This document shows positions 23,570 to 59,309 of a DNA stretch of 64,000 nucleotides, piece by piece. A program made the position numbers and the translations under genes. The stretch's first letter is position 1. Each line of letters starts with the position of its first letter. This DNA comes from Miscanthus floridulus (lineage: Eukaryota; Streptophyta; Magnoliopsida; Poales; Poaceae). The notes beneath the pieces were generated by a model. It saw nothing but the letters and a program-made list of their open reading frames with translations. It did not search any database and was not told the origin of the DNA. The stretch spans positions 53,131,633 through 53,195,632 of the forward strand of contig NC_089584.1 in assembly GCF_019320115.1 (NCBI RefSeq), given 5' to 3'.

Positions 23570-24773
23570 TATAACACCCCGGGTGTTAGTCATGAGTTAA
23601 GCAACAAAATTGGACTTAAGTAGGTTATGTCAAGCAATGATTATGATCTCTAGTTCATAATTTTGAAGTGATGATGAAGGTGTTGAGGTCCAATCTATGA
23701 AATTGAGTCCCAACCTAAACTTGGACAACACACCTTTGCTTACATGTGGACCCTGGTTAAGGTTAGGCATGAGTAATGTTAAACATGCTTGATTCATGTA
23801 CATTACATCAACATGCATCCATCTTGACCAGTGGAAAAGTTTCATGAAGTTTGGAATCAAGAAGTCACATGAAATGATAAGTTATAATCTTTCTTGAATT
23901 GCTTCATCAGTGAATGGGAACATTGGATGTCAACCAAACCTTGCAACCTTGCTCAAACAACTCTACTTAAACTCATGAACAAAAATCATGAAGGGTTCAT
24001 GTGGAGCAAATGTCAAGAAAATGCTTCTAAGTGTGGGGATAGCTAAAATTATCTTTTTCATGATATTGTTTTGACCTATGTTGACCAACTATTTGGAGTG
24101 CTTGCATGGAGTTGGACATTAAATAAAAGTTGAAGTTTGAATGGAGTACAACAAACTTTATTTTTGGATCAAGCCCTGATTCAACTCCTAAGTATCTCAA
24201 ACAGTGGTCTCAAGTTTGAATGCAGTCTTGTTTTGGCCCCTCTGAAATCTTTCCAAGTCCCTAATCGGCAACAGCGAGTTGACATGTTGTGACATTTTTA
24301 TCTTCCAAATTCATATGGTAACTCAACTGGATTCCTTAATTAGAGTTGAATTACACTTTGTGTTGAAAACAATAAAACAAGTCTCATCACTTTTGTAGCA
24401 TGTTTGGACATTCAAAGGTAGTTTCAAAAATAGCTAATGGCACTGAATTCCTTTGCCAATGCCTGAATGTTCTGTCTAAACTCAGTTTTGGGTACTCATC
24501 TTTGGAGGTTTGTATCTTGCAAACCAAGCTGAACCAATCCTAGATCCTTTAAGCAAAGTTGTAGATTACATTAAGTAGAACAACTTTCGTTTAAGTACCA
24601 AGACCTGGTTCAGTCTCTAACCTAGCCAATTAGGGACCCCAAGATCGAATCCAGTGCTGCTTTTAGGTTCCAAAAATTGGCTAAGACTGGGACTAAACTT
24701 TTTCGGTTTACAGTTTGTAAGTACCCCCACTTTGGGAATTTATATCTCGCAAACTATTTTGATTTAGACCAAA
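23570..24773 (+). repeat. Element D 5' LTR, first part
   Basis: Matches the start of the D 3' LTR (44434 on), including a long shared stretch with TTCATGTACATTACATCAAC. It ends at CCAAA, the left target duplication of C1. Confidence 0.8.
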
Positions 24774-27501
24774 TGTAACACCTCGGGTGTTAGCCTTGCA
24801 TAACTTGACTTGCATAACATGAGCATGATCATCACGCATTCATAAACAAGCATTTACAATTGAAACATTGAATTGAAACATATGCAACGTTGCTTGTTAT
24901 TGCATGTTTCTTTGTACATATGCAAATGATCATGAATGTAAACATGTACTTGGTAGATTTGAGTCACCAAAATGTGTTGGCAATGCTTAGGTTCACAAAT
25001 GGAACATGGATCATGAATGTCATTTTTCATGGTCAAGTCTTTAAGGCATATTTCATGTGATTACTTTCAATAGCTCTATGAGTGACTACTACATGAAATG
25101 ATTGAATGGCCTTGCAAATTGCTTAAACATGCTTAGGGTATCATTATGAACAACTTTGGTATTTAGGGCTAGGGCTAGTTTGGTCATTAAGCCATGCTTT
25201 GATGTGTTTCCTCTTTTAAATGTGACATGTTTGACCAAATTGGAACTAGGTGTTAGAGACCTTGCATGGAGGAGTTCACTAAAGCAATGTTGTAGTGTTT
25301 GACATAAGGAACAACTTTGATTTTTGGGCCCTTGACTGATTCAGCTCCCAACATGTGTGAAATTGGATTTCAAAAATCATCAAATCACTGATTTCAGCAC
25401 TTAGCAAATTTCGCTAAGTCATGAACACTGACCGACTGACAGGCTCACTTTGGGGATGATTTTACTCGGTTTATGTTGCGAATTAGAGTATGCTGCCTTA
25501 ACAAGAGTTGGAGATGGTACATAGATCTACAAGTTTGTTGTTGACGGATTTCGATTTTGCTGCACGGTTTAAGTGAACGAACGTCAGCAAACCGCGCTGT
25601 CAGGCATGAACGATTGCTTGTCTGACGAACTGAATCGCCGTTTCGGTGGCCGACCGGCGCAGAGCATTGCCGCCGCGTGGCGTGAGAATCGGCCGCGCGT
25701 CGCCGCTGGTCTGTCCGCGTAGGCCACGACGCGCCTGGGCGCGCCTTCATCACGCCAGCGCCCGCCCGCACTCAGCCGCGCTCCATTTTCGCTTCGCCTC
25801 GGCCTTTCTTCCTCGCAGCAGCAGCCGCCGAGCTCTCGCAGCTCCGCCAGTCGCCATAGCCGCGCACAGCTCGCGCCTAGCCACTCTAGCACCACCGCCA
25901 TAGCTCCACCGTCTCCCCAGCACCCCATTGCTTCTCCCCAGTGCCCGCTGACAGCACTTGGTAAGCCGCCGCAGCGCATGCAAGCTCGCCGGAGTTCCGC
26001 CGTGAGCCCCGTCGTCGTGGCCACGCCGCCACAGTCCTTCTCCCGCTCTGTTGGCTAGCGCGCTAGGTCCCCCAGCGTTCATAGATGCTTGTCCTGCACC
26101 TTAGGTTGAGCCGCCGAGGTCGTCACTGGCGTACCGCCGACGTCCCGCCCCGCCGTTCCGCCATGGTCGCCGCCGTCAGCTCTAGAGTCGACGATAAGTC
26201 CGGCCATGTGGCTCAGTAGGTTCGCTAGGTCACGTAGATCACGTAGCGTAGATGTCATCGCCGGCGAAGCTCGCCGTCGACGAGCCACAGCCGCGCAGTG
26301 CCCAGCAGCGCCGCTGCTCTGCTTCGAGTCAATGACATGTGGGGTCCCCTGACCACCGGGTCCCACCGGTCAGCGACTCCGTGTTTGAAGGCTAACTCAT
26401 TTGATTCCAGTTTTTGATTTCTTTTGTGATTTTCATATCTTCAGTTTGGTAGCTCCTAAATTTGTGAAATAAATATGGTTGTGTTCCTTAGGAAGTGTAG
26501 TATTTAAGAAAAATATGTTCTTGGCTTTCAACAGTAGAAATTTCTGGAGATTTAAATAAGGATTTGAAATGTGCTTTTGAATGCATTCAAATTTGTTTAT
26601 TTTATATCTAGAGTTCCTGTGCTCCAAAAATTATGAAATTTTTGTGGTAAGCTAGTCTTAGCATATATGAACTCTGGTAAAAATTTGAAGACCAGTGCAT
26701 GTGTAGAATTATAGTTATAGATTTTTCTTTTATGGCTAGTCAATCCTTGCATGAATTTTTATAAATTATTTATGAGTCCAAAATTCATGAAATTTGTTGG
26801 AGGTAATCCTAGTACCATATGTATGTTAAGAAAAATAGGAAATCTGTTGCTTGACACTTTTCAATAGGATTTTCCATTTATGCTATTTCAAGCCTTGCTG
26901 CCTTATCATTTTTGTATAGAATGTTCTACTTAGTAAAATGACATGAAATTTTTATAGTAGTCCTTTTATAGCATTAGTAAGGCACTGTAAATTTTTAGAA
27001 TTTAATAAGTATGTCTGATATATGTTTAGTATTTAACCTAGATATCTAAATAAAATAATAAAGGTAATTAAATAAATAGTTTGGACTTCACCATTATATT
27101 ATCTTAACTGTATTTGGTATGCTTAAACTGTTGGTAGATTCTATGTTGTCAAATTTTGAATGATTACATGAAGTAGAAGTATTATTACTTTATATTGCAT
27201 GTTAAATAGTTTCCGGACTAATTCTAGAGTGTGATGAGTTGCATATTGAAACTGATGTGTACTGTAAAAATGGTTAATAACAAAGTTGTAGAGAATTTGA
27301 TAAGCTTTCCAGAAAGTCCTAGGATCACTGTTTTTGGATTAGTAGAACTCTAGTTATGAGTGAAACAAGTAGCTACTGTTTGTGGCATAGTCGATGCATT
27401 GTAGAAGTAGTTAAGTAATAATCGAGAAGAGATATGCACCTACTCAATCAACGTGATGCACTTGTTAACATATATGCATTCGTAATACTTATGCCATACT
27501 C

Positions 27502-27729
27502 ATGCATCTAGGATCAGAGGAAGAGATCACGTTGCTGGAATTCGAAGAAGCAGAGGAAGGGAACCAGCAGGAGGATCCGCAAGCCGCAGCTCCCGAAGGC
27601 GTGGAGCAGAACCCTGAAGAGCTTCCGGAGTGCCCTGACCACCGCCCTACTTCCTTTCTGCGAGGCAAGCCCCGGAGCATTATAAGTCTCCCAGTAATTT
27701 ACAAATGTTTACTACGTATTTATGATTGA
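27502..27729 (+). CDS. Small acidic ORF inside C1 5' LTR
   Basis: 75 codons, the counterpart of 7040-7264 with one visible Pro to Gln change (EEGNQQEDPQ) and a slightly different end. The exon-like block is 27512-27664, again 153 bp, between CATCTAG and GAG|GCAAGCC. Function unknown. Confidence 0.35.
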   Translation: MHLGSEEEITLLEFEEAEEGNQQEDPQAAAPEGVEQNPEELPECPDHRPTSFLRGKPRSIISLPVIYKCLLRIYD

Positions 27730-28681
27730 TGCATTAGGTTATAAGAGTTGAATGAAACCACTTGATGCATGTACATTCCTTGTCCAGATATTACACCTTT
27801 AACCGGTATAGGTCCAGGATCGAATATATATGCTTAGCCATGCTTAGACCGGTAGAAGTCGGGTGATGTCCTGTCACCTGCGAGATATAGGTGGATACCG
27901 GAGCACGGTTGGCTATATCTGCTATCGTGGAACAGAACCATGAGGTAAAAATAAATTGAGACCGGACGGGAAGTCGATAGAGAAGCAACAAGGCATGGAG
28001 GTCTTGGGTGTGGACTTATCCCCGTCTATGTCGATTAAGGACCGTACCGTTGTTGGCGCTTCTGACAAGATTGAACGCATGCCTCTCACTTAGCTGGCCG
28101 GATAACTCGTTCCGACCGCGAAGCCGAGTAATTCAACTCAGGCCGGGAACCGTTCTGTTGTGCGCTCCTTCCGGGGAACGATCAGACTGAGCCCAAGGGC
28201 AGGCTTGGCCTGAGCATCCTGGCATCTGGTGTTCCAGATTGTGCGGCGCGGTACGGACCCGCGAAATGTGTACCTGAGTTGTACCAAAGGTGACCTAAGA
28301 CTATCGTGGCTGGTAGATCTGGGTTTGTGTTAGGAATAAATTCCCAGCTGGTAGAAATCGATTCGAATCGCCGTCTCTCCCGGATAGTGAGAAACTTGGC
28401 TAGTCCCAACATCGTAGCAACTATATTATGAAACATGATGGTTCAGATGAATATGGAATTACAATACCTGCTATGGTTACTATTGTATGCTTCTAAATGA
28501 TATACCACATGTTTGGCACAGGATAGTTGCTAATCTAGAAATGGATAGTTATAATTAACTTGATAAAGGAATCATAATTGTACAACGGGTAATTGCCTTT
28601 TACGCAAAATGTTGTCAAGTTACGTCCACTTATACAGCCTTGCATAATCCTTGGAGTCATTTTATTTCTGGTTCATGACGG

Positions 28682-28736
28682 GTAAGTCTAGCTGAGTACC
28701 TTCTCGTACTCAGGGTTTATTTTCCCATTGTTGCAG
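28682..28736 (+). promoter_or_regulatory. Intron-like segment with hairpin in C1 5' LTR
   Basis: GTAAGT donor, perfect hairpin CTGAGTAC/GTACTCAG at 28692-28713, then a pyrimidine-rich tract and TTGTTGCAG, followed at once by ATGGCACTG. At 55 nt it is shorter than usual plant introns, so splicing is uncertain; the hairpin itself is clear. Confidence 0.45.
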
Positions 28737-29163
28737 ATGGCACTGTGTATCATGGGTATTGCAAGAGTTGCTTCTATCCCGCTGTGGATGAGGAGTAAGC
28801 CTTGGGCAGGCTTCCTTAGTAATTCCTATCTTTGCTTTTGTGGACCGTGATCTGGCTTGGCACTGTATCAAACTATGTTGGAAACTTTATCTTCGAACTT
28901 ATTTGCTTCCGCTTTATTTATCAAACTCGGTTTGTAATAACTTTTATTCGTACTCTGATGATGAAAAGTATCTGTGAACTTTATGTAATATGTGGCATGT
29001 ATGTTGAATCCTGTACGATCTTGGTTGTTGTAAATCGTTTATCGAGACCCGTCGTGGTACTCGACGGACTACCGGGTTTATATGGGTTCAAGTATGACAG
29101 TGCGACCGCTTGCGGATTGCCATTGTACTTGTATTCTTATAAATTGGTCGGTTCTGCGACAGC

Positions 29164-29177
29164 TGGCATCAGAGCAA
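29164..29177 (+). promoter_or_regulatory. Element C1 primer-binding site
   Basis: TGGCATCAGAGCAA two bases after the LTR end; close to the initiator tRNA-Met complement TGGTATCAGAGC. Confidence 0.8.
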
Positions 29178-29928
29178 GATTCAACGTTAATTGTCACAAG
29201 TGTATTTAAAACAAAAGTTTTTTGTGTTCCAAAAACCCTTCTCTAGCAACTAATAGTTATATAATAGGTATTTGAAATCTAAAGTGTGCCAATGATCACT
29301 TTCCTTATGCCCAAATTAAGGACTATTAGGTGGCTATTTAAGTACTAACATGGGGGTTTTTACTTCGTCGTCCATACGGCGTGCTATAGTATGGATGCCA
29401 TTCACTTGAGTGGTAATGTATGGATCAAATGCCTCTACGCCAAGGTAAGATGAGTGTATGACCGCAAGATGTGAGCGTGCGGTCGGGAAGAGTTAGCTTT
29501 GGTATGGCTATGTATGCATGCTTGCATGTGTATATGGTACGTATTTAATTGTGGGTTTAAATTCTTGTCGGGTAGATTGATACGGAAGTATATGTATGGG
29601 TATACATATATGAAGTATTTACAATTACATTCTGCATATTTCATTATGGGTTTAGGGCTGAAATGAAATTTTATGCAGGTACACTAACAACGAAACGTGT
29701 AGCTCGACTAGTTACGCTATTTATGAGAGAACGTATGTATGCCACCGTGTCTACCGTTAGAAACAAATTTTTCCTAAGTTTGTGAGGACGTACGGCACGA
29801 GCATGCATCATGTTAAATTACCATTCACATAACTACATTGTTCCTCCCCTTATAAAATTCTTACTCGGTTATGTAACTCTTATCCATTATGGCATTGTCT
29901 CACCAAAGGGTACATGTTAATGGTGCAG
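29178..29928 (+). other. C1 leader between PBS and extra ORF
   Basis: No coding signal. It ends in GGTGCAG|ATG, an acceptor-like sequence directly at the start codon of the extra ORF. An in-frame upstream ATG at 29914 has a poor initiation context. Confidence 0.5.
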
Positions 29929-30850
29929 ATGGCACGCACCAAGCAGACTGCTCGCAAGTCCACCGGAGGCAGAGCTCCTAGCCGTCAGCTTGCTCCACGT
30001 ACCCGTCAACGTCACACGTTCCTTGGAGAGTTTGGGATGCCTACACTCTTGTGGAGAGTGCTCAGCTATGTAGGTTATCCTGATGGAATGGAACCCCGCT
30101 ACTTCTGGGCGAATGAGCGGTTGGGAGAAGGTCTCTTAGTTACTGTGGAGGCCGTTGTTCGTCCCCGAGGTGACGATTCTGAGTGGACAGGTTGGTGTTA
30201 TGAGTCAACTGGCAGGACTGCTGAAGAAGCAGCTGGCAGGGCAGCCTTTGGGATCTTGAGGAATATCATGGATCGTTTTCCTCAAGAGCTGGCAGCCGCT
30301 TTGGTTGGAGTCTTTCCAAGAGGTAACCCCTCCACTGACTCATGGCAGCAGGCAAGAGGAAGATCTTTGGAGATTGGTGCAGCAGAAGGGCAGAACAGTG
30401 ATAACCCTGCCATGAGCGCCATGTTCGCAGTGATGAGAGTGTTAGATGGAGTAGAAGGTAGCCTCAGACGTGTGTCTGGTGCTCTTGGTCATGCCCGCGA
30501 GGACCGACGTCAGCTTCAGAGGGAGCACGACGCCGAGATTGAGAGGCTCACTGAAGAGATGACTCGGTTAACTCACCAGCTGAAATGCAGCTTGGTCCAG
30601 GGAAGATGTCCTGAGAGCTCGACAGTTTGAGCTGGGACAGCAGCTGGCCAATGCGGAAGAATACAACGATAATCTGCATGAAGAGGTTCATCTACTGAAC
30701 AATCAGCTCCACCCTTATGTCCCACCTGGAGCCGCAGAAATGGATCTAGAAGGGTATGAAGAAGAAGAAGTGGAGCCTGAAGAAGAAGTAGAACCTGAGG
30801 AAGGAGACGATTCTGCATCTGACCTCGATAGTGATCATGATGAGGATTAG
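29929..30850 (+). CDS. Extra ORF of element C1 with histone-H3-like N-terminal tail, dsRBD-like region, coiled coil and acidic tail
   Basis: Lies between PBS and gag on the sense strand. The start at 29929 is preferred over 29914 because it has G at +4, follows GCAG, and gives MARTKQTARKSTGGRAPSRQ. After Met removal this equals the histone H3 tail at positions 1-13, 15-16 and 19-21, with K14R, R17S, K18R, then T22P and K23R; K4 and K9 are kept. Residues 38-113 have the spacing of a dsRNA-binding domain: helix, strands through RYFWANERLGEGLLVTVEAV, WTGW, then helix TAEEAAGRAAFGILRNI. Residues 165-217 form a coiled coil. A frame change near 30580-30605 (stop of the first frame at 30630) leads into a Glu/Asp-rich tail ending at 30850. 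There is no histone fold, so it is not an H3 gene. Role unknown; regulation of chromatin or packaging are inferences. Confidence 0.75.
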
Positions 30851-31207
30851 ATCGCTTAGCACTTAGTGGAAGGACTAATGTATCACCTTTATTCATGTAA
30901 TGGACCTGTAGTTCGAATTTTGGCATTAGTAACCAGACTATCATGTAATGTTGATTAATCGCACGTTTGGATGAACATCAATGCAATTCCAGTCCTTTGT
31001 CGGTGATCCCGCTTTAATTTGCATGCGTTATGAACACGATAAGTGGTCAAATTGGTGATGTCATGTTGCGAGAATGAATTGTTATGCCTCTGTTTTTATT
31101 GTGCTTTTGAGAACTTTCTCCTAGTAATTTCAGTTTGGCATGAGTACCTAATTCATCTGCAATCTCTTGGCATCAACCAATAATCGCTTATTGTTGCAAC
31201 TTCGCAG
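30851..31207 (+). other. C1 spacer between extra ORF and gag
   Basis: Non-coding; AT-rich, ending in CAACTTCGCAG directly before the gag ATG at 31208, again acceptor-like. Confidence 0.5.
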
Positions 31208-32270
31208 ATGACGCGCACCCGTGCTGGAGCTGGTGGCAGCCAGGATGGCAACCTAGGATGACTTGCCACCCCCACCGCCTGCCGTCTGCTCAGGAATTCT
31301 TTACCCAGTTCCTGGGTAGCCAGAGGACAATGGAAGAAGCTTTGCGCCTTATCGCGCAAAACACTGCTCGTGGCCACCCACAGCAACCGGGGGCCGAGCC
31401 AAATCAGCACAGTTCATTCAAGGAGTTTCTGGACACGAAGCCTCCGATCTTCAAGGTGGCTGAGGAACCACTGCAGGCCGATGAGTGGCTGAATACCATC
31501 GAGCAGAAATTTCGTCTGCTAAGGGTCACAGAGCACCTGAAAGCTAAATATGCTTCTCATCAATTGCAAGGACCAGCAGGAATCTGGTGGACACACTTCC
31601 TATCGTCTCTGCCTGCTAATGCGCGAGTGACCTGGGAACAATTCAAGCTGGCTTTTAGGGGACACCATATTCCCCCGGGCCTGATGCGCATGAAAGCAGC
31701 CGAATTTATGAGGCTCACTCAAGGAACAAAGTCACTCACAGAATATATGCACGCATTCAACAACTTGTCAAGATATGCTCCAAGTTTATGGATACTGAAG
31801 GAGAAAAGATTGAGAAGTTTCAAGCGAGGGTTGGGTACCAAACTGAATGAAGACTATGGCAAATTCTCGATGTGCCACGTACAATGAGTTTATTAGTGAT
31901 GCCTTGACCCAAGAAAACCACAACAACATGCATGCAGTTGCTAAAGGTCGCAAGAGGGCATATGAGGCCGGTGCATCCGGATCTTTCCAGTCAAAAGCGC
32001 CTATCACAGCTAGGCCACAATTCCGTCCACCTGCACCCAAGTTTAGGCCTCCACCACCGAAAGCTCAGAATAATAGGCCACAGAAACCATTCCGTAAGGC
32101 GTTCACTATTGCCTTACCAAAAGGAAATGGTAATCAGGACAGCTCCACCGGATTCAGAAGTAATCAACCATGTTTCAACTGCAACCAACTGGGTCATTGG
32201 TCCAAGGAGTGCCCCCACCCCAAGAGGAATGGCAACCCAAATCAGAACAATCAGAGGCAGGTGAATGCCA
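31208..32270 (+). pseudogene. gag: Element C1 gag
   Basis: ATG at 31208 begins MTRTRAGAGGSQDGNLG and meets a stop at 31259; a one-base frame change there leads into the main frame 31258-31887. That carries the Retrotrans_gag domain (ADEWLNTIEQKFRLL, WWTHFLSSLPANARVTWEQF, SLTEYMHAFNNLSRYAP). A second frame change near 31800-31860 leads to a Pro-rich stretch and the nucleocapsid zinc knuckle [14 protein letters not shown] at about 32172-32213. The order is that of chromovirus Gag, which forms the particle and binds RNA. Both breaks could be single-base errors in the assembly. Confidence 0.85.
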
Positions 32271-35200
32271 GGGCACGTCAGGGACAAGTGCATTATACCG
32301 CTGTGGAGGAAGTGCCCGCCGGAGAAGTTGTCACGGCTGGTATGTTTCTTGTCAACAAGCATCCCGCTGTTGTTTTATTTGATTCGGGAGCTTCTCATTC
32401 ATTTATGAGTCAAGCATTTGCATCTAGACATGAGCAAGAAATAATAGAAGTAAGTAAAGGGGGTTTTAACATAAGTTCAGCAGGGGGAACTGTTACTACC
32501 AAAAAGATAGTCAAAAATGTACTCATCTTGATACAAGGGAGGGAGTACACAACAGATTTGATAATATTGCCGGGGTTGTCGATAAGTGTAATCTTAGGCA
32601 TGAATTGGATGAAGGATCATGGTGTTCTTATTGACACTAGCACCCGTACCATTATGTTGAGAGAACCCACGGGAGGGAATGCTTTTCTAGTTCCACTCTC
32701 CCGCGATTTCGAACCCCAACATTTAGCCTGTGCTATCCAAACCACCACCATATGTGATATCCCAGTGGTTTGTGAGTTTCCGGATGTATTTCCAGAGGAA
32801 TTACCAGGTCTACCACCGGATAGGGACGTGGAATTTAAGATTGAATTAGTGCCAGGTACCGCACCCATATCCAGAAGGCCCTATAGAATGCCACCCAATG
32901 AGTTAGCAGAACTTAAGGATTCAATTGCAAGATCTATTGGACAAAGGTCTTATCCAACCTAGCTCATCTCCGTGGGGATGCCCAGCCTTGTTTGTGAAAA
33001 AGAAGGATAAGTCACTGAGAATGTGTGTAGATTACAGACCACTCAATGCTGTGACCATCAAGAACAAGTATCCCATTGCCCCGCATCGACATCTTGTTCG
33101 ATCAGCTAGCGAAGGCAAAGGTATTCTCCAAAATTGACTTGAGATCAGGTTACCATCAGATAAAGATCAGACCGGAGGATATACCTAAAACTGCTTTCTC
33201 TACTAGGTACGGCTTATACGAGTATTTGGTTATGTCCTTTCGGACTAACAAATGCTCCAGCCTATTTCATGTACCTGATGAACTCGGTATTCATGCCCGA
33301 ACTTGATAAGTTCGTGGTCGTGTTTATCGATGACATATTGATTTATTCAGAAAATGAGTCAGATCATGAAGAGCATCTGAGGATTGTCCTATCCAGACTT
33401 GAGGGAGCATAAGCTATATGCCAAGTTTAGCAAATGTGAATTTTGGATGAGCAAAGTACCTTTCTTAGGTCACATTTTATCAAGAGATGGAATCTCAGTA
33501 GACCCATCAAAAGTACAAGAGGTCATGGATTGGAAAGCCCCAACTTCGGTTCATGAAGTTCGGAGTTTTCTAGGGTTAGCAGGATACTATCGTCGGTTTA
33601 TTCCAGATTTCTCAAAGATAGCTAAGCCTATGACCAGACTACTTCAGAAAGATGAGAAATACAAATGGACACCAGAATGTGAAACAGCTTTTCACACCCT
33701 CAGAACTTTGTTGACTACAGCGCCTGTGCTAGCACAACCAGACATTGAAAAGCCTTTTGATGTATTTTGTGATGCATCAGGAATAGGTTTGGGATGTGTG
33801 CTTATGCAAGAAGGGAGAGTAATTGCATATGCCTCTCGGCAATTGAGAAAACATGAAGTCAACTACCCTACACATGATTTGGAACTGGCAGCCGTTGTTC
33901 ATGCATTAAAGATATGGAGACATTACTTGTTGGGCAATGTATGTCATATCTATACTGACCACAAAAGCCTCAAGTATATCTTTACCCAGCCAGAGCTGAA
34001 CATGAGACAACGAAGATGGTTAGAATTGATTAAGGACTATAATTTGGAAGTGCATTACCATCCGGGTAAAGCTAATGTAGTAGCCGATGCACTTAGTCGG
34101 AAGTCCCATTGCAACACTGTGGAAGCACTATTGGAAGATGGATTCAACTTGCTACATCCTGCTGTACTACACAATATCACAATCAGTTGTTCGCTTGAGG
34201 GCAAAATCATAGAGCTACAGCAGACAGATGTAGGAATAAGTCACATCAAGAGAAAAATGCAAGAGCAGGAAACCAAACATTTTAGATTGGACGAAAGAGG
34301 TGTATTATGGTTTGAGGACCGGCTAGTGGTACCAAAAGACCGTGAGCTAAGGAATCAAATCTTAGAGGAAGCTCACTCAGTCCAAATTGTCTATCCATCC
34401 GGGTAGTAGTAAAATGTATCAAGATCTAAGAACCCGTTTTTGGTGGACTAAGATGAAGAAAGAGATCGCAGCCTATGTTGCTAGGTGTGATAACTGTAGT
34501 AGAGTGAAAGCCGTCCATATGAAAACCGCTGGATTACTTCAGCCATTGCCTATTCTAGGATGGAAATGGGAGGAAATCAGTATGGACTTTATTACAGGCC
34601 TTCCAACAACGCCACAAGGTCACGATTCAATCTGGGTCATTGTTGATCGTCTCACCAAGTCAGCACACTTTATACCCGTGAACACGCGGTATATAGTTGG
34701 GAAATACGCTGAGATATATGTATCCCAGATCGTGAGATTGCATGGAGTACCCAGGACCATAATCTCAGATAGAGGACCACAGTTCATAGCTCATTTCTGG
34801 GAGCACTTACACCAGGCTTTGGGAACCAAGCTAATCAGAAGTTCAGCTTATCATCCGCAAACTTCAGGACAGACAGAGCGAGTGAACCAAATCCTAGAAG
34901 ATTTACTTAGAGCTTGTGTTATATCTTCAAAAGGTTCATGGGAGAAATGGTTACCTTTAGCTGAATTCTCCTATAACAACAGTTATCAAGCGAGTATCAA
35001 AATGGCTCCATTTGAAGCCTTGTATGGCAGAAAGTGCAGAACTCCATTGAATTGGATTGAGCCCGGTGAAAGGAGATACTTTGGTATTGATTTTGTCAAT
35101 GAAGCCGAAGAACAAGTACGTATCATCCAACAACACATGAAGGCAGCTCAATCAAGATAGAAGAGTTATGCCGACAGAGAAGAAGACCACTGACTTTTGA

Positions 35201-35627
35201 AGTGGGTGACTATGTATACTTGAGAGTATCACCCATGAAAGGTGTGAAAAGATTTGGGATGAAAAAGAAGCTTTCACCAAGATATGTAGGGCCATACAAA
35301 ATTTTGGAACGAAAAGGAAATGTTGCGTATAAGCTACAACTACCACCAGAGATGAGTGCAATCTTTGATGTGTTCCATGTTTCTCAGCTAAAGAAATGTC
35401 TTCGAGTACCGGAAGAAGCTATTGCACCCACCAACGTGCAGCTTCAATCGGATTTGACCTATGAAGAAAAGCCAATTCGAGTATTAGAAGAGATGGAGAG
35501 AGTGACAAGGAGTAAGATTATTAAGTTCTATAAGGTGGTGTGGAACAATCATAGTGAACAAGATGCTACGTGGGAAAGAGAAGATTATCTACGAGAAGTT
35601 TATCCCGCCTTTTTCCAAGAATGGTAG
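32271..35627 (+). pseudogene. pol: Element C1 pol: protease, RT, RNase H, integrase, chromodomain
   Basis: Continues from gag. Protease: [14 protein letters not shown] (about 32370) and [56 protein letters not shown], and [10 protein letters not shown] at about 33325, carrying the catalytic Asp pair. RNase [12 protein letters not shown] and [11 protein letters not shown]. Integrase: zinc region ending CDNCSRVKA, catalytic Asp in SMDFITGLP and ISDRGPQF and Glu in QTERVNQILEDL. The C-terminus has the GPY/F motif (RYVGPYKILERKG) and a chromodomain (VWNNHSEQDATWEREDYL). At least five frame changes or stops lie within, near 32960, 33100, 33240-33390, 34390 and 35160, so it does not encode an active polyprotein as assembled. 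Confidence 0.9.
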
Positions 35628-35670: not shown

Positions 35671-38600
35671 TGTAACACCTCGGGTGTTAGCCTTGCATAA
35701 CTTGACTTGCATAACATGAGCATGATCATCACGCATTCATAAACAAGCATTTACAATTGAAACATTGAATTGAAACATATGCAACGTTGCTTGTTATTGC
35801 ATGTTTCTTTGTACATATGCAAATGATCATGAATGTAAACATGTACTTGGTAGATTTGAGTCACCAAAATGTTTGGCAATGCTTAGGTTCACAAATGGAA
35901 CATGGATCATGAATGTCATTTTTCATGGTCAAGTCTTTAAGGCATATTTCATGTGATTACTTTCAATAGCTCTATGAGTGACTACTACATGAAATGATTG
36001 AATGGCCTTGCAAATTGCTTAAACATGCTTAGGGTATCATTATGAACAACTTTGGTATTTAGGGCTAGGGCTAGTTTGGTCATTAAGCCATGCTTTGATG
36101 TGTTTCCTCTTTTAAATGTGACATGTTTGACCAAATTGGAACTAGGTGTTAGAGACCTTGCATGGAGGAGTTCACTAAAGCAATGTTGTAGTGTTTGACA
36201 TAAGGAACAACTTTGATTTTTGGGCCCTTGACTGATTCAGCTCCCAACATGTGTGAAATTGGATTTCAAAAATCATCAAATCACTGATTTCAGCACTTAG
36301 CAAATTTCGCTAAGTCATGAACACTGATCGACTGACAGGCTCACTTTGGGGATGATTTTACTCGGTTTATGTTGCGAATTAGAGTATGCTGCCTTAACAA
36401 GAGTTGGAGATGGTACATAGATCTACAAGTTTGTTGTTGACAGATTTTCGATTTTGCTGCATGGTTTAAGTGAACGAACGTCAGCAAACCGCGCTGTCAG
36501 GCATGAACGATTGCTTGTCTGACGAACTGAATCGCCGTTTCGGTGGCCGACCGGCGCAGAGCATTGCCACCGCGTGGCATGAGAATCGGCCGCGCGTCAC
36601 CGCCGGTCTGTCCGCGCAGGCCACGACACGCCTGGGCGCGCCTTCATCACGCCAGCGCCCGCCCGCACTCAGCCGTGCTCCATTTTTGCTTTGCCTCGGC
36701 CTTTCTTCCTCGCAGTAGCAGCCACCAAGCTCTCGCAGCTCCGCCGTCACCATAGCCGCGCACAGCTCGTGCCTAGCCACTCCAGCACCACCGTCATAGC
36801 TCCACCATCTCCCCAGCACCCCATTGCTTCTCCCCGTGCCCGCTGACAGCACTTGGTAAGCCGCCGCAGCGCATGCAAGCTCACCGGAGTTCCGCCGTGA
36901 GCCCCGTCGTCATGGCCACGCCGCCACAGTCCTTCTCCCGCTCTGTTGGCTAGCGCGCTAGGTCCCCTAGCATTCATAGATGCTTGTCCGCACCTTTGGT
37001 TGAGCCGCTGAGGTTGTCACCGGTGTACCACCGACGTCCCGCCCCGCTATTCCGCCATGGTCGCTGCTGTCAGCTCTAGAGTCGATGATAAGTCCAGCCA
37101 TGTGGCTCAGTAGGTTCGCTAGGTCACGTAGATCACGTAGCGTAGATGTCATCGCTCGGCGAAGCTCGCCGTCGACGAGCCGTAGCCGCGCAGTGCCCAG
37201 CAGCGCCGCTGCTCTGCTTCGAGTCAATGACATGTGGGGTCCCCTGACCACCGGGTCCCACCGGTCAGCGACTCCGTGTTTGAAGGCTAACTCATTTGAT
37301 TCCAGTTTTTGATTTCTTTTGTGATTTTCATATCTTCAGTTTGGTAGCTCCTAAATTTGTGAAATAAATATGGTTGTGTTCCTTAGGAAGTGTAGTATTT
37401 AAGAAAAATATGTTCTTGGTTTCAACAGTAGAAATTTCTGGAGATTTAAATAAGGATTTGAAATGTGCTTTTGAATGCATTCAAATTTGTTTATTTTATA
37501 TCTAGAGTTCCTTGTGCTCCAAAAATTATGAAATTTTTGTGGTAAGCTAGTCTTAGCATATATGAACTCTGGTAAAAATTTGAAGGACCAGTGCATGTGT
37601 AGAATTATAGTTATAGATTTTTCTTTTATGGCTAGTCAATCCTTGCATGAATTTTTATAAATTATTTATGAGTCCAAAATTCATGAAATTTGTTGGAGGT
37701 AATCCTAGTACCATATGTATGTTAAGAAAAATAGGAAATCTGTTGCTTGACACTTTTCAATAGGATTTTCCATTTATGCTATTTCAAGCCTTGCTGCCTT
37801 ATCATTTTTGTATAGAATGTTCTACTTAGTAAAATGACATGAAATTTTTATAGTAGTCCTTTTATAGCATTAGTAAGGCACTGTAAATTTTTAAGAATTT
37901 AATAAGTATGTCTGATATATGTTTAGTATTTAACCTAGATATCTAAATAAAATAATAAAGGTAATTAAATAAATAGTTTGGACTTCACAATTATATTATC
38001 TTAACTGTATTTGGTATGCTTAAACTATTGGTAGATTCTATGTTGTCAAATTTTGAATGATTACATGAAGTAGAAGTATTATTACTTTATATTGCATGTT
38101 AAATAGTTTCCGGACTAATTCTAGAGTGTGACTGAGTTGCATATTGAAACTGATGTGTACTATAAAAATGGTTAATAACAAAGTTGTAGAGAATTTGATA
38201 AGCTTTCCAGAAAGTCCTAGGATCATTGTTTTTGGATTAGTAGAACTCTAGTTATGAGTGAAACAAGTAGCTACTGTTTGTGGCATAGTCGATGCATTGT
38301 AGAAGTAGTTAAGTAATAATCGAGAAGAGATATGCACCTACTCAATCAACGTGATGCACTTGTTAACATATATGCATTCGTAATACTTATGCCATACTCA
38401 TGCATCTAGGATCGAAGGAAGAGATCACGTTGCTGGAATTCGAAGAAGCAGAGGAAGGGAACCAGCAGGAGGATCCGCAAGCCGCAGCTCCCGAAGGCGT
38501 GGAGCAGAACCCTGAAGAGCTTCTGGAGTGCCCTGACCACCGCCCTACTTCCTTTCTGCGAGGCAAGCCCCGGAGCATTATAAGTCTCCCAGTAATTTAC

Positions 38601-40063
38601 AAATGTTTACTACGTATTTATGATTGATGCATTAGGTTATAAGAGTTGAATGAAACCACTTGATGCATGTACATTCCTTGTCTAGATATTACACCTTTAA
38701 CCGGTATAGGTCCAGGATCGAATATATATGCTTAGCCATGCTTAGACCGGTAGAAGTCGGGTGATGTCCTGTCACCTGCGAGATATAGGTGGATACCGGA
38801 GCACGGTTGGCTATATCTGCTATCGTGGAACAGAACCATGAGGTAAAAATAAATTGAGACCGGACGGGAAGTCGATAGAGAAGCAACAAGGCATGGAGGT
38901 CTTGGGTGTGGACTTATCCCCGTCTGTGTCGATTAAGGACCGTACCGTTGTTGGCGCTTCTGACAAGATTGAACGCATGCCTCTCACTTAGCTGGCCGGA
39001 TAACTCGTTCCGACCGCGAAGCCGAGTAATTCAACTCAGGCCAGGAACCATTCTGTTGTGCGCTCCTTCTGGGGAACTGATCAGACTGAGCCCAAGGGCA
39101 GGCTTGGCCTGAGCATCCTAGGCATCTGGTGTTCTAGATTGTGCGGCGCGGTACGGACCCACGAAATGTGTACCTGAGTTGTACCAAAGGTGACCTAAGA
39201 CTATCATGGCTGGTAGATCTGGGTTTGTGTTAGGAATAAATTCCCAGCTAGTAGAAATCGATTCGAATCGCCGTCTCTCCCGGATAGTGAGAAACTTGGC
39301 TAGTCCCAACATCGTAGCAACTATATTATGAAACATGATGGTTCAGATGAATATGGAATTACAATACCTGCTATGGTTACTATTGTATGCTTCTAAATGA
39401 TATACCACATGTTTGGCACAGGATAGTTGCTAATCTAGAAATGGATAGTTATAATTAACTTGATAAAGGAATCATAATTGTACAACGGGTAATTGCCTTT
39501 TACGCAAAATGTTGTCAAGTTACAGTCCACTTATACAGCCTTGCATAATCCTTGGAGTCATTTTATTTCTGGTTCATGACGGGTAAGTCTAGCTGAGTAC
39601 CTTCTCGTACTCAGGGTTTATTTTCCCATTGTTGCAGATGGCACTGTGTATCATGGGTATTGCAAGAGTTGCTTCTATCCCACTGTGGATGAGGAGTAAG
39701 CCTTGGGCAGGCTTCCTTAGTAATTCCTATCTTTGCTTTTGTGGACCGTGATCTGGCTTGGCACTGTATCAAACTATGTTGGAAACTTTATCTTCGAACT
39801 TATTTGCTTCCGCTTTATTTATCAAACTGGGTTTGTAATAACTTTTATTCGTACTCTGATTGATGAAAAGTATCTGTGAACTTTATGTAATATGTGGCAT
39901 GTATGTTGAATCCTGTACGATCTTGGTTGTTGTAAATCGTTTATCGAGACCCGTCATGGTACTCGACGGACTACTAGGTTTATATGGGTTCAAGTATGAC
40001 AGTGCGACCGCTTGCGGATTGCCATTGTACTTGTATTCTTATAAATTGGTCGGTTCTGCGACA
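35671..40063 (+). repeat. Element C1 3' LTR
   Basis: 4393 bp, nearly identical to the 5' LTR. It includes the acidic ORF at 38400-38627 (75 codons, open) and the hairpin at 39593-39614. CpG sites in the core at 36480-37290 are more often changed to CA or TG than in the 5' LTR. Confidence 0.95.
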
Positions 40064-40068
40064 CCAAA

Positions 40069-44433: not shown

Positions 44434-47400
44434 TGTAACACCCCAGGTGTTTGTCACCTAGTTAAGCAATGGGTTTGAGCTCAAACATGGCATGTGAAGT
44501 GGTGATGAAGGTGTCAAGATCAAATCTACAAGAGTGAGCTCCAACTTAAACTTGGACAACACACCCTACTTCCATGTGAACCCTTGTTAAGATTATGCAA
44601 GAGTAATGTTAAACATGCTTATTTCATGTACATTACATCAACATGCATCCATATTGACCAGTGGAAAAGTTTCATGAAGTTTGGAATCAAGAAGTCACAT
44701 GAAATGATAAGTTATAATCTTTCTTAGATTGCTTTATTAAGTGAATGGAATTATAGATCATCAACCAAACCTTGCTACTTTGCTAAAATGACTCTATTGA
44801 ACTTTACAACAAAAGTCATGTAGGGCTCATGTCGAGCAAAGGTCAAGAAAATGCCTCAATCGGTCTAAAACTCTAATTTAAGTTTTACCGTGATGCAATT
44901 TTGACTTGTGTTGACCAAATGCTTACATTGCTTGCATGGAGTTGCACCTTAAATAAAAGTTGAAGTTTGAGTGGAGTAGAACAAACTTTGTTTTTGGACC
45001 AAGAGCTAGATCAGCTTGTAAGAAAGTCAAACTAAGGCTCAAACTTTGAATCTGCAGCTGTTTTCAATACTTAAATTTTTTCAAATTCTGGAATTCATCG
45101 TCATCGACATTGGCATCTCGTGTTCTCAGTGATTTTGTTAAGTAATGTGATCGGGTCCCAAAATAAAAGTTGGAGTATACATTGTGGAGAAGAGCATGCA
45201 AAAGGAGGGCACTCCTTCGACCTTGTCTTTGACAATCGATTTTTGTATTTGATTAATCAGCGTCAACACGTTAACACTTGCTAATTGGGCGCTAATTAAC
45301 CATTGTTCCAAAGACCTAATGGCTGTGACCCCTTAATCAAGTTTGTAGAGCATCTAGAGGAGAGAAACTTTTCTATAGGCGCTAAGGTACGAATATGCTC
45401 CGAACATGTCGAAATCTAGACCCAAAGGCAGGCTTGTTCGCGCATGCCACCTGTTCGGTAGAATGCCCATGTGGCCACCATGCAAGCAGGGTGCCCCCAC
45501 CATGGCCAACACATGTCCCACCTCCATGCCATGCACCCCTGCCTTCCTCTCACATCGATGCTATGGTAGACACTCCCTCTTCACTCGCCTCGTCCTCCCC
45601 ATCCCTTTCCTCGCTCTCCAGCCTTGCACACGCGTGCAGAGCATGGTTACGCCATGGCCACCATGAGCTTGAGCTTGGCCACCATCATTCTTCGACCTCA
45701 GAGCGCCTCGTAGCCTAGAATCCACTGCCACCAGCTCTGTCGACCTCTCCTTGGCTTCGCGCGCCCCTCCACGGCCTTTCTTCGCCGCCGTAGCACGCGG
45801 CCACCGGTGCCGTGGCCGCCGCGGATGCTTATGCGAGCGGACATGCCAACCTAGCCAGCCTCCGGCCAAACTGAGTGGCCCCACGCATGTGCGCAGGCCC
45901 ATGGGTGCCCCGCAACTTCGCCGACGCCGACGATGACCATAGCCGTCGGAGCCGCGAGCCCGGCCACCCCCCCCCCCGCGCTGCCGTCGAGAGGAAGGAG
46001 AAGGGGGGACCATGCGTGTGAATAGGAAGTTTTCTAGGGGGTTAAGTGAAGAACCTGTGACTCTTTTGAATAGTGCTAAGAAGGACCTATTCGCTTGCAT
46101 TTAATTTATGTTTTCTGCAGGGACCCTAGTGCAAAAGCGTTTTCCTTTTCTTTTTCATTATATGCATATAATCAGCTGAACTTTGGAAAATTGTAGCAAA
46201 CTGTAGAAAAATCCAAAAAAGAGAAAATGAGGACTTTTTGGAATTCCATGTGAAATTATCAATGCAGTAGATCTATAATATGGCATGATTTAGTTTAAAG
46301 TTTTTGCTGTAAAAATCAATTTATGCAGTTAGGTTATTAATAACAGTCATGTCTTGTCTTTTTCATAACTTCAGTTGTAGAGCTCAAATAAATGTGAAAT
46401 GTTTATAGAGTGCTACTCAGGTGATGGTTGTTGTCTGGTAAAAATTTCAGGAGTTTAAAGCTTGATAGTTTAAGAGCTATAAAAATAACAAGTGCCATGT
46501 GTTGCTTTGCTCCTATTCTGAATAGGACTGCATGTTTGTATTAATTGGCTTAGTTAAGTTTTGAATTATGACTTTATGACAATATATGAGTTGTAGTACT
46601 TTTCTTAATATTTTCAAAAGGCTAAATAGTATAATTTTTGGTTAAGTAGATTTTTAGTTATTGTTGCTTAAATTTTTGTGGTTGTTTTTGCCCAAACCCA
46701 GACAGGGTTGCCTTGTTGGTATTGTGGGGCCTTTTTAATAGTATAATTAGCTTGAGGTATTTATAAAAAAGTTGTTTAGAATTTGCTAAGCTATGAAAAG
46801 TCTAGAACCACATTTATTGGACATGTATAACTCTAGTTATAGCTGTTTAAAGCGGTATGTTAGATTATGTCCATGTTTTGGATAGAGATGCAATTATTGG
46901 TTTAATTTACCTTGTTAACTATAGAATCATCTTAAGATGAAGAATAATAAAGTTGTAGGTAACTTCATAAGATTTTCAAAAAGTTATGATTCATGTTTGT
47001 TGGAGGTCTAGAACTCTAGTTATGATTCTCTGAAGTTTCTATCAGTTTTCTATACCATTGCTGTTTGGGCTGCATGTGTAGTTTTGCTTGTGCAATTATT
47101 TTCGTGGTGTAAATTATGTTTGCTGTGGTTGTGGTGAATACCAAAGTTGTAGGTAACTTCATAATCTAGCTTGTGCTAAATGTTCATTACCATAGGCCTG
47201 ATAATTTAGGAGCTATAGATTTTATAATTTCCTTGTCAGGTTTTGCATGCTCTCTGTACAGATCTAAATGATTGTGTTGTTGGACCCAACTAAGCTTTGA
47301 ATCATGTCTTGGAGATAGTGTAATAAGTGTAGTGATTTTCATGAGCTTTCCAAATTGTTAAAGATCACTCCTTTTAGGTGGTCAAAATCTCCAGTTATAA

Positions 47401-55985: not shown

Positions 55986-58900
55986 ATGGGCTCAAAGAAG
56001 AAAGCCATTTGGGTGCCAAAGAGCTTAGTAACTAACCTTCAAGGACCCAAGCAAGTTTGGGTACCTAAAAAGAATTGATCTTCTTTTGTAGGTTAATTAC
56101 AAAGCCGGAGGAAAGCATTGGGTTCTTGATAGTGGGTGCACTCAACACATGACCGGTGATGCAAGAATGTTCAACTCAATTAACACCAATGGCAATGATG
56201 GTTATGATAGTATCACATTTGGTGACAATGGCAAAGGCAAGGTCAAAGGACTTGGTAAGATTGCAATATCCAATGACATGAGCATATCCAATGTGTTGCT
56301 AGTAGAGAGCTTGAACTTCAATTTGCTATCCGTGGCTCAATTGTGTGATCTTGGATTCAAATGCATATTTGGGGTAGATGATGTAGAGATCATAAGTGTA
56401 GATGGCTCTAACTTGATCTTCAAAGACTTTAGATATGAGAATCTATACTTGGTTAATTTCAATGCTAGTGAAGCTCAATTGTCAACATGCTTGTTCACTA
56501 AGTCTAGTATGGGTTGGTTATGGCATAGAAAGCTTGGTCATGCTGGAATGAAACAATTGAATAGATTGGTTAAGCATGACTTGGTTAAAGGCTTGAAAGA
56601 TGTTGTGTTTGAGAAGGATAAGCTTTGTAGCTCTTGTCAAGCTGGCAAACAAGTTGGAAACACCCATCCCAAGAAAAGCATTATGAGCACTAGCAATGCA
56701 TTTGAGTTGTTGCACATGGATTTGTTTTGGCCAACACAATACACTAGCATCGGTGGAAATAAATATGGCTTTGTGATAGTGGATGACTATACAAGATACA
56801 CTTGGGTATTCTTTCTAGTGGAAAAAAGTGATGTGTTTGCAACATATAAATCATTTGTCAAGGGCATACACAATGAGTTTGAAACAACCATCAAGAGAGT
56901 TAGAAGTGACAATGGTAGTGAGTTAAAGAATACTAGAATTGATGAGTTATGTGATGAATTTGGAATTAGACATCAATTCTCGGTCAAGTATACTCCACAA
57001 TCAAATGGACTTGTTGAGAGGAAGAATAGAACACTCATTGATATGGCAAGGTCTATGCTTAGTGAGTACAATGTGAGTCAATCTTTTCGGGCTGAGGCTA
57101 TCAACACGACTTGCTATTGTAGCAACCGCTTATATTGTCACCCATTGAAAGAGAAGACACCATATGAGCTCTTTAATGGTAGAAAGCCCAACATTGCATA
57201 TTTTGGGGTCTTTGGTTGTAAATGCTATATTTTAAAGAAAGGCACTAGATTACGAAAGTTTGACAAGAAATGTGATAAAGAATTCCTACTTGGATACTCC
57301 ATACAAGTAAAGCATATAGAGTTTAGAATTTGGAAAGTGGTACTCTTGAAGAAGTTCATGATGTGGAATTTGATGAAACCAAGGGTTCCCTAGATGAGAA
57401 TGAGAACTTGGAAGATGTTGGAGGCATTCAACTTTCAAATGTCATGAAGAACATGGATGTTAGTGAATTAAGGCCTAGGCAAGTGAATGATGAAGAAGAT
57501 GATCAAGTGCAAGTGCTCTCTAACTCAAATGTGTAAGATGATACAAATCAAGCTAGCACAAGTGGCTCTCATGACAATGTGTAAGATCAAGTGGCTAGTA
57601 CATCATCTCAATTAAATGATCAAGCAAGTGCAAGCAATGTTCCTATTCTCCAACCAACTAATATTGCAAGAGATCATCCATTGGATACTATAATTGGAGA
57701 CATTTCTAGAGGTGTGCAAACTAGATCAAGATTGGCTTCATTTTGTGAGCATTTCTCATTTGTGTCATCCATTGAACCAAAGAAGATAGATGAAGCATTG
57801 AAGGATGTTGATTGGGTGAATGTTATGCATGAAGAATTGAACAACTTCACAAGAAATCAAGTATGGGACTTAGTGGAGACACCAAAGGGACATAATGTTA
57901 TTAGAACCAAATGGGTCTATAGAAACAAGCAAGATCAAGATGGGATAGTAGTAAGGAACAAAGCAAGATTGGTAGCACAAGGCTATACACAAGTTGATGG
58001 TCTTGACTTTGGAGAAACATGTGCCTCGGTTGCTAGATTGGAAGCAATTAGAATCTTGCTAGCCTATGCTTGTGCCCACAACATCAAGTTATATCAAATA
58101 GATGTCAAAAATGCATTTCTCAATAGCTACATCAATGAAAAAGTATATGTTGAGCAACCTCCTGGTTTTGAAGACGACAAGAAGCCCAACCATGTGTACA
58201 AGTTGAAAAAGGCATTGTATGGCTTGAAGCAAGCACCTAGAGCATGCTATGAGAGGTTGAGGGATTTCCTACTCTCTAAAGGGTTCATGATGGGCATGGT
58301 TGGCACCACTCTTTTCACCAAGAAGATTGGCAAGGACTTGTTTATGTTGCAAATCTATGTTGATGACATCATATTTTGATCAACCAATCAATACTTTTGT
58401 GAAGAGTTTGGAAAGATAATGGCTAATGAGTTTGAGATGTCCATGATTGGAGAGTTGAGTTACTTCCTTAGACTTCAAATCAAGCAATTGAAGAATGGTA
58501 CATTTGTGAGTCAAGGCAAGTACATCAGAGACAAGCTCAAGAAGTTTGGCAAGAATGAAGCTAAGGCCATAAGTACACCAATGGGGACAAATGACAATTT
58601 GGATAGTGATGCAAGTGACAACATGGTGGATCAAAAGTTGTATCAGTCTATGATTGGAAGCCTACTTTATGTGACCGCATCAAGGCCGGATGTCATGTTT
58701 AGTGTGTGCATATGTGCAAGATTTCAAGCCTCACCAAGAGAAAGTCATTTGAAGGCTACAAAAAGAATATTGAGGTACTTGAAGCATACACAAAATGTTG
58801 GTTTGTGGTATCCCAAAGGAGCAAAATTTGAGCTAGTTTGTTACTCTAACTCAGATTATGTGGAATGCAAGGTTGAAAGGAAGAGAACCTTGGGCACTTG

Positions 58901-59309
58901 TCAATTGTTGGGAAGATCACTTGTTTTATGGTCATCAAAGAAGCAAAATAGTGTTGCATTATCAACCACCGAAGCCGAATACATATCCGCCGGTAGTTGT
59001 TGTGCACAAATTCTTTGGATGAAGGCCACCTTGAATGACTTTGAAATCAAGTTCAAGAAAGTGCCATTGCTATGTGACAATGAGAGAGCAATCAAGCTCA
59101 CCAACAATCCAGTTCAACATGCAAGAACAAAGCACATTGATGTCTGCCACAATTTCATAAGAGATCATCAACAAAAAGGGGACTTTTGCATTGAGAGTGT
59201 GGGCACCGAAGATCAACTTGCCGATATATTCACCAAGCCATTGAATGAGAAAAGGTTTTACAAGCTAAGGAATGAGTTGAACATATTGGATTTCTCAAAT
59301 ATGTGTTGA
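55986..59309 (+). pseudogene. pol: Copia pol: protease, integrase, RT, RNase H
   Basis: Gag reads on from ATGGG to a TGA at about 56077; pol opens at 56092 directly after a pyrimidine tract ending TAG. Protease: HWVLDSGCTQHMTGD. Integrase: zinc-finger WHRKLGHAG ... LCSSCQAGK, catalytic Asp in LLHMDLFWP and RSDNGSEL and Glu in GLVERKNRT, open to about 57300. A frameshift there leads into the linker and RT: TKWVYRNKQDQDG, QIDVKNAFLN, YGLKQAPRACY and YVDDIIF, then TGA at 58378. RNase H continues in the same frame to 59309 (LSTTEAEYISA, HIDVCHNFIRDH), but the first catalytic Asp position reads Asn (YSNSDY). Stops are at 57534, 57582 and 58378. The order protease-integrase-RT defines Ty1/copia. 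Confidence 0.9.

Follow-up and report, generated by a model that had tools for sequence, protein, structure and literature searches.

A 64,000-nucleotide stretch of the Miscanthus floridulus genome (the window; contig NC_089584.1) holds a long terminal repeat (LTR) retrotransposon, with both ends present and with gag, protease, RNase H and an integrase with a C-terminal chromodomain between them, and an additional open reading frame of this element, ORF0, begins with a close copy of the N-terminal tail of histone H3. Among the relatives compared, lysine 9 of the tail is constant and the acetylatable lysines are lost, and between diverged clades the tail is better conserved than the linker adjoining it. 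The preferred reading is that ORF0 is a histone H3K9 mimic which would act on the writers and readers of H3K9 methylation in the host and reduce silencing of the element, a proposal given a probability of about 0.4.

The H3-like tail and its conservation

In the window, the methionine of ORF0 is followed by 21 residues (ARTKQTARKSTGGRAPSRQLA; N-terminal sequence from 29929, MARTKQTARKSTGGRAPSRQLAPR) that were compared with residues 1–21 of H3. They are identical at positions 1–13, 15–16 and 19–21 (18/21), as an earlier note on this DNA had claimed, and they lie at the extreme N-terminus. The same note had reported arginine in place of K14, K18 and K23; all three replacements are present, together with R17S, and the acetylatable lysines have been lost across the relatives too. 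With average amino-acid frequencies, the chance of at least 18/21 matches to H3 at a fixed position is about 1.6e-19. A protein search with ORF0 among 5.8 billion sequences also finds P0081 (79% identity over 10% of the query, E 5.9e-4), which carries histone Pfam domains and begins with an H3 tail.

Relatives of ORF0 came from three protein searches (81, 580 and 575 matches; best 81, 120 and 120 listed) that yielded 233 distinct proteins. P0081 aside, their source labels are jgi, ena, lgn or src, taken for metagenome assemblies containing plant DNA. The tail survey covered 233 sequences, including the ORF0 of the window and excluding P0081. The anchor motif PTLLWRVL (at most three mismatches) occurs in 166 of these and is preceded by at least 30 residues in 78, the window included. 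An H3-like start, with 7 to 19 of 21 H3 matches, was found in 75 of the 77 relatives of this kind (weakest in P0184 and P0227, 7 matches each); the other two are P0073, the upstream part of which looks frame-broken, and the tail-less P0142. Among the 88 sequences with a shorter upstream part, 64 have a single residue before the anchor and most others are uninformative, while P0076, P0100 and P0114 have a complete but different, tail-less start resembling that of P0142. P0070 joins a tailed N-terminus to a body of the tail-less type (compared with P0100 and P0158) and is likely a recombinant ORF0 or a chimeric assembly. No relative of ORF0 was found in the viral contigs searched; contig L001, the sole match to a degenerate MPTLLWRVL pattern, has phage-like frames by eye and was set aside as a chance match.

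Site rates were obtained from 74 of the 78 sequences (73 relatives and the window) after removal of P0070, P0073, P0142 and P0080, the last tailed though with a spurious anchor. K9 is lysine in all 74, and K4 is lysine in 46, arginine in 27 and tryptophan in one. The number of copies identical to H3 at the remaining positions is 70 at A1, 60 at R2, 60 at T3, 31 at Q5 (leucine in 39), 66 at T6, 67 at A7, 63 at R8, 66 at S10, 62 at T11, 57 of 71 at G12, 71 at G13, 2 at K14, 58 at A15, 72 at P16, 51 at R17, 0 at K18, 66 at Q19, 72 at L20, 68 at A21, 3 at T22 and 1 at K23. Changes at R2, R8 and R17 are mostly to histidine, cysteine or tryptophan, a pattern suggestive of CpG decay. The tail evolves more slowly than the seven residues after it (median rate 0.76 vs 1.77, p 0.003) and does not differ from residues 30–116 (median 0.94, p 0.38).

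Hand-written patterns of body motifs divide the sequences into clades A (18), A2 (4), B (14), C (21), D (7), D2 (3), E (6) and F (1). Between the consensuses of clades A–E the tail agrees at 186/210 pair-sites (89%) and residues 29–59 at 237/310 (76%), compared with 24/70 (34%) in the linker, a figure that may be depressed by the dropping of a linker residue missing from the window ORF0. All eight consensuses keep K9, as opposed to K4, which is arginine in C and E and in some copies elsewhere. An H3-like motif with a conserved modifiable lysine, one of the features of a histone mimic, is present at K9. The earlier note had both K4 and K9 retained in context, which stands for K9 and fails for K4; it had also named free variation at these lysines, or copies without the tail, as evidence against its claim, and here K9 is fixed, K4 varies, and tail-less copies exist beside many tailed ones.

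Body, origin and start of ORF0

The frame had been described as running from 29929 to 30850. Its start is as described, but a stop closes it at 30628–30630 and the remainder lies in a second frame; compared with P0003, the window copy has lost about 43 codons before the frame change into the C-terminal part. Structure prediction gives the body a double-stranded RNA-binding domain (dsRBD) fold, predicted also in a tail-less relative, followed by a long coiled coil. The best Foldseek E-value is 1.7e-3, and among the nearest folds in both models, over about 80 residues, are DRB7.2 and the second dsRBD of DCL4, plant domains solved in complex with DRB4; the likeness is one of models, with a sequence identity of only 13–19%, and the absence of other families from the match lists is no evidence. 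Sequence profiles did not recover the fold: the dsRBD Pfam profile has no match in the window ORF0 (only DUF4164 at E up to 10), and no dsRBD occurs among the 25 listed of 66 families matched by 66 ORF0 members or among 22 PDB sequences matched by ORF0. The RNA-contact motifs of dsRBDs (GPxH loop; KKxxK at helix 2) appear in 0/66 rows of an ORF0 alignment, with the register set by eye and some rows being fragments. Other weak Pfam and PDB sequence matches, mostly of coiled-coil type, were discarded and no meaning is attached to them. Histone Pfam domains were not matched in the window ORF0 either (E up to 1, repeated at E up to 10); the view that the frame has no histone fold beyond its tail and is not a host H3 gene or pseudogene is therefore upheld.

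The most likely source of the tail is an H3 gene, from which it would have been captured and then cut down to the K9 motif. In P0094 the likeness to H3 reaches residue 26 (QLATRAPR vs QLATKAAR in H3) and K14 is kept; P0187 has HLATKAPR at the same place, with only 11 H3 matches in residues 1–21. With P0142 as root, a tree built from 33 dsRBD regions unites every tailed sequence except P0070, with some of unseen start, in a clade with 75% support; near its base are P0227 and then P0041/P0094 (54% and 30%), and P0184, in which K14 is kept, is inside the clade and not basal. In the sister group (100%) are P0076, P0100 and P0114, all tail-less, together with P0070 and four relatives whose start is not seen. 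This topology fits one uptake of an H3 5' end by the ancestor of the tailed clade, with acetylatable lysines lost later; the root was chosen, support is weak, and loss of the tail in other lineages is also compatible with the tree.

Translation of the tail from its own methionine may involve splicing. There are 32 ATGs from 29162 to ORF0, and ordinary scanning would therefore hardly reach it. CAGATG occurs only twice between the LTR and gag, at the ORF0 start and at the putative gag start, and glutamine precedes the start methionine in 13/13 relatives with residues found there (10 tailed, 3 tail-less; not all independent, as several have a longer upstream stretch in common). A leader spliced from the putative donor (Table 1) onto CAG/ATG would make MARTK the start, and ORF0 and gag may derive from alternatively spliced RNAs. 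This idea is based solely on one donor, a pair of CAG-ATG sites and the glutamine, and the eight ATGs that remain upstream of the donor at 29445 weigh against a clean first-ATG start. The gag start (MTRTRAGA, 31208–31231) resembles that of ORF0 (MARTKQTA, 29929–29952) in having M-x-R-T after CAG, and the two are similar as DNA too, perhaps by chance.

Readings of the tail

The initiator methionine is removed when alanine follows (the Met-Ala rule), which in ORF0 would expose A-R-T-x-x-T-A-R-K-S-T-G-G at the end of a disordered arm preceding the dsRBD-fold domain, the long coiled coil and the acidic end. The H3K9 machinery of plants includes SUVH-type writers and CMT, SHH1 or Agenet-type readers. 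If bound or methylated by this machinery, the tail could compete with it or divert it near the element, while the coiled coil would make the protein multimeric and the dsRBD-fold domain might dock on partners, with DRB/DCL-family proteins as one possibility; the outcome would be weaker silencing of the element. The proposal in its fullest form is a two-headed anti-silencing protein derived from a captured host H3 5' end, with an H3K9 mimic tying up or redirecting the H3K9me2/RNA-directed DNA methylation machinery, a DRB/DCL-binding dsRBD fold, multimerization by the coiled coil and a spliced transcript starting at MARTK; as a whole this is rather unlikely.

Several points weigh against mimicry. 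Expression, methylation, binding and effect on silencing are all conjectural, and histone tails are so abundant that a global decoy would need high expression. In-frame ATGs at 29914 and 29920 would, if used, bury the tail. Tail-less relatives of ORF0 exist, many copies are decaying, some clades have Q5L and K4R, and clade E also has T3R. The relatives listed are the 120 with the highest scores out of 580 and, likewise, 120 out of 575, and the last query included the tail, which biases the list toward copies with a good tail; the dropped residue mentioned above may exaggerate the divergence of the linker. Within clades the tail departs from consensus more often than residues 29–59 (135/1384, 9.8%, vs 131/2037, 6.4%; linker 84/462). 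K9 is changed there in 0/66 cases, lysines other than K4 and K9 in 1/63 and all lysines in 5/168, four of these at K4. Since lysines in general are seldom replaced within clades, the constancy of K9 at this level is unexceptional, and the argument for selection on K9 rests on its retention in all eight consensuses, against K4R in two, and on conservation of the tail as a block.

Two of the alternatives involve the chromodomain. The earlier note had placed it at about 35450–35610 as a reader of H3K9me-type marks; the domain is present (Pfam Chromo 19.9 bits, under its cut-off of 25.1), but it is of the cage-less plant type II. Against HP1, in which the cage residues are Y, W and Y, only the W45 equivalent is kept, so that the three-residue aromatic cage of H3K9me-reading chromodomains is absent. 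In the published accounts cited here, Y24 is missing from type II chromodomains, as Y48 is in most cases, and a partner for them is not established (PMC3350952, PMC6317226).

The best of the alternatives is that the K9 tail, methylated by the host, is bound by heterochromatin readers and that ORF0, travelling with the particle or integrase complex, steers new copies to heterochromatin, a task that the type II chromodomain may not perform. The retained K9 context suits this, as do the degenerate cage (isoleucine and histidine at the Y24 and Y48 equivalents), a coiled coil that could give multivalent binding, and the fact that a tether would be effective even at a low protein level; yet tail-less ORF0 relatives exist and the presence of ORF0 in the particle is supposed. 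Tethering, which like the decoy had been proposed in the earlier note, is considered possible though unlikely. The decoy or anti-silencing role is placed ahead of it by a small margin, on the ground that an additional protein which evolves fast and has a domain fold of the silencing type would be in keeping with an arms race.

An improbable third reading is that the tail is a handle for nuclear import or histone chaperones, a basic H3-type signal in which K9 is kept for reasons other than methylation. The tail does remain basic, with most lysines replaced by arginine or histidine, but a basic signal needs neither an ordered ARTxxTARKSTGG nor a constant K9, nor P16, L20 and A21, and the neighbouring arginine-rich linker diverges far more. 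It is quite improbable that the tail is a relic without present function, captured once and conserved through recent descent or the choice of matches: the match lists do favour conserved copies, many of which decay (R to H, C or W), and within-clade constancy of K9 is unexceptional, but between clade consensuses identity has fallen to 34% in the linker and 76% in residues 29–59, against 89% in the tail.

The earlier note had suggested the tail as a ligand for the chromodomain of the same element; that the methylated tail binds there and so loads or holds the integrase is very improbable. One element encodes both parts, the W45 equivalent is kept and the partner of type II chromodomains is open in the papers cited above, but two of three cage residues are missing and homologous elements without ORF0 are reported (PMC3485330). 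An embrace of tail and chromodomain is possible but not favoured. Convergence on H3 from an unrelated sequence, as is thought for the short viral ARSK and ARKS mimics, is highly improbable given up to 19/21 matches from residue 1 and the similarity of P0094 as far as residue 26.

The element, known systems and significance

The order gag–protease–RNase H–integrase with a C-terminal chromodomain between LTRs (Table 1) identifies the element as a Ty3/gypsy chromovirus; the sole grounds for assigning it to the Tekay/Del type are the length of its LTRs, the presence of ORF0 and the type II chromodomain. Retrotrans_gag, RVP_2, RT_RNaseH, Integrase_H2C2 and SH3_Tf2-1 score above their Pfam cut-offs and rve below (27.2 bits; cut-off 32.6). 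None of ORF0, gag and pol is intact in this copy, and the reverse transcriptase proper consists of broken pieces before 33409, outside the Pfam scan. Across 4383 aligned sites the two LTRs share 98.65% identity (Kimura two-parameter distance 0.0136), which at the grass substitution rate of 1.3e-8 dates the insertion to roughly 0.5 million years; their 56 transitions and 3 transversions are what would be expected under heavy cytosine methylation. Pairs of repeats at 23664–24168 and 44495–44998, 76–93% identical, about 20830 apart and lying on either side of the element, perhaps belong to an older element, as its LTRs or as some other repeat, into which the present one inserted. Another retrotransposon, with Ty1/copia-type integrase, reverse transcriptase and RNase H frames by eye, lies at 56149–59309.

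Table 1. Features of the ORF0-bearing retrotransposon (window coordinates).
Feature	Position	Strand	Remarks
Target-site duplication CCAAA	24769..24773 (left); 40064-40068 (right)	.	5 bp, flanks the LTRs
5' LTR	24774..29161	+	~4.4 kb; begins TGTAACACC, ends TCTGCGACA
Primer-binding-site-like TGGCATCAGAGC	29164..29175	+	sequence read directly; presumably initiator tRNA-Met type
Putative splice donor AAG/GTAAGA	29442..29450	+	intron would begin at 29445; sole site with at least 8/9 consensus in 29162-31200
Putative splice acceptor CAG and ORF0 start codon	29926..29931	+	CAG directly before ATG
ORF0, in-frame part	29929..30630	+	233 aa; ATG at 29929, stop 30628-30630
H3-like tail	29929..29994	+	Met + 21 residues; 18/21 identical to H3
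Predicted dsRBD fold	30037..30276	+	residues 37-116, alpha-beta-beta-beta-alpha; structure prediction
Predicted long helix/coiled coil	30400..30600	+	residues 158-224; structure prediction
ORF0, C-terminal part	30584..30850	+	second frame; remainder of coiled coil, acidic end
Putative gag start	31208..31261	+	inferred; directly after CAG; stop after 17 codons in window copy
gag, zinc knuckle, protease	31258..32962	+	frames broken
RNase H and integrase	33384..35160	+	frames broken
Type II chromodomain	35457..35624	+	integrase C-terminus; W45 equivalent kept, Y24 and Y48 equivalents I and H
3' LTR	35671..40063	+	begins TGTAACACC, ends TCTGCGACA

ORF0 as such is already known from grasses. The published account of Retrosat2, FRetro3, RIRE3, RIRE8 and their grass relatives describes it as an extra, fast-evolving frame between the 5' LTR and gag-pol, in elements whose LTRs measure about 3 kb or more and which have been reported in grasses but not beyond them, and assigns it mostly hydrolase-type functions from models (PMC3485330). 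By description only, the present element is like this family in its frame upstream of gag and LTRs of at least about 3 kb; the words histone, chromodomain, intron and double-stranded RNA are absent from the main text of that paper. Histone mimicry is established in viruses, with influenza NS1 (ARSK) and SARS-CoV-2 ORF8 (ARKS) as cases in the source cited (PMC10208167), and an H3 tail on a retrotransposon protein would be a variant of it. What ORF0 shares with these mimics, as described there, is a short H3-like motif at a modifiable lysine in the protein of a parasite; it differs in extending over at least 21 residues, in being N-terminal as in H3, in belonging to a retrotransposon and in its fusion to a predicted dsRBD fold. 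VANC of VANDAL transposons is likewise an extra element-encoded protein, reported to counter host silencing as is proposed for ORF0, but it is sequence-specific and bound to DNA motifs, and the text cited notes no H3 mimicry for it (PMC5735166). A review of molecular mimicry by plant transposable elements covers mimicry of microRNA targets, transcription factors and complex components, with no histone tail noted in the part cited (PMC12085086). An H3 tail in a retrotransposon protein was not found among the papers listed in searches of mostly open-access journals, which is weak evidence of novelty.

ORF0 has so far had no established function. The combination of an H3 tail whose K9 is constant with a predicted dsRBD fold suggests a specific role that experiments can test. 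Antibodies against H3K9me might recognise proteins of the ORF0 type. Such a protein may also connect elements whose chromodomains lack the cage with heterochromatin. If the preferred reading is true, ORF0 would be part of the contest between retrotransposons and silencing by H3K9me2 and RNA, and a complete N-terminal tail on a transposable element would join the short motifs of viruses as a form of histone mimicry.
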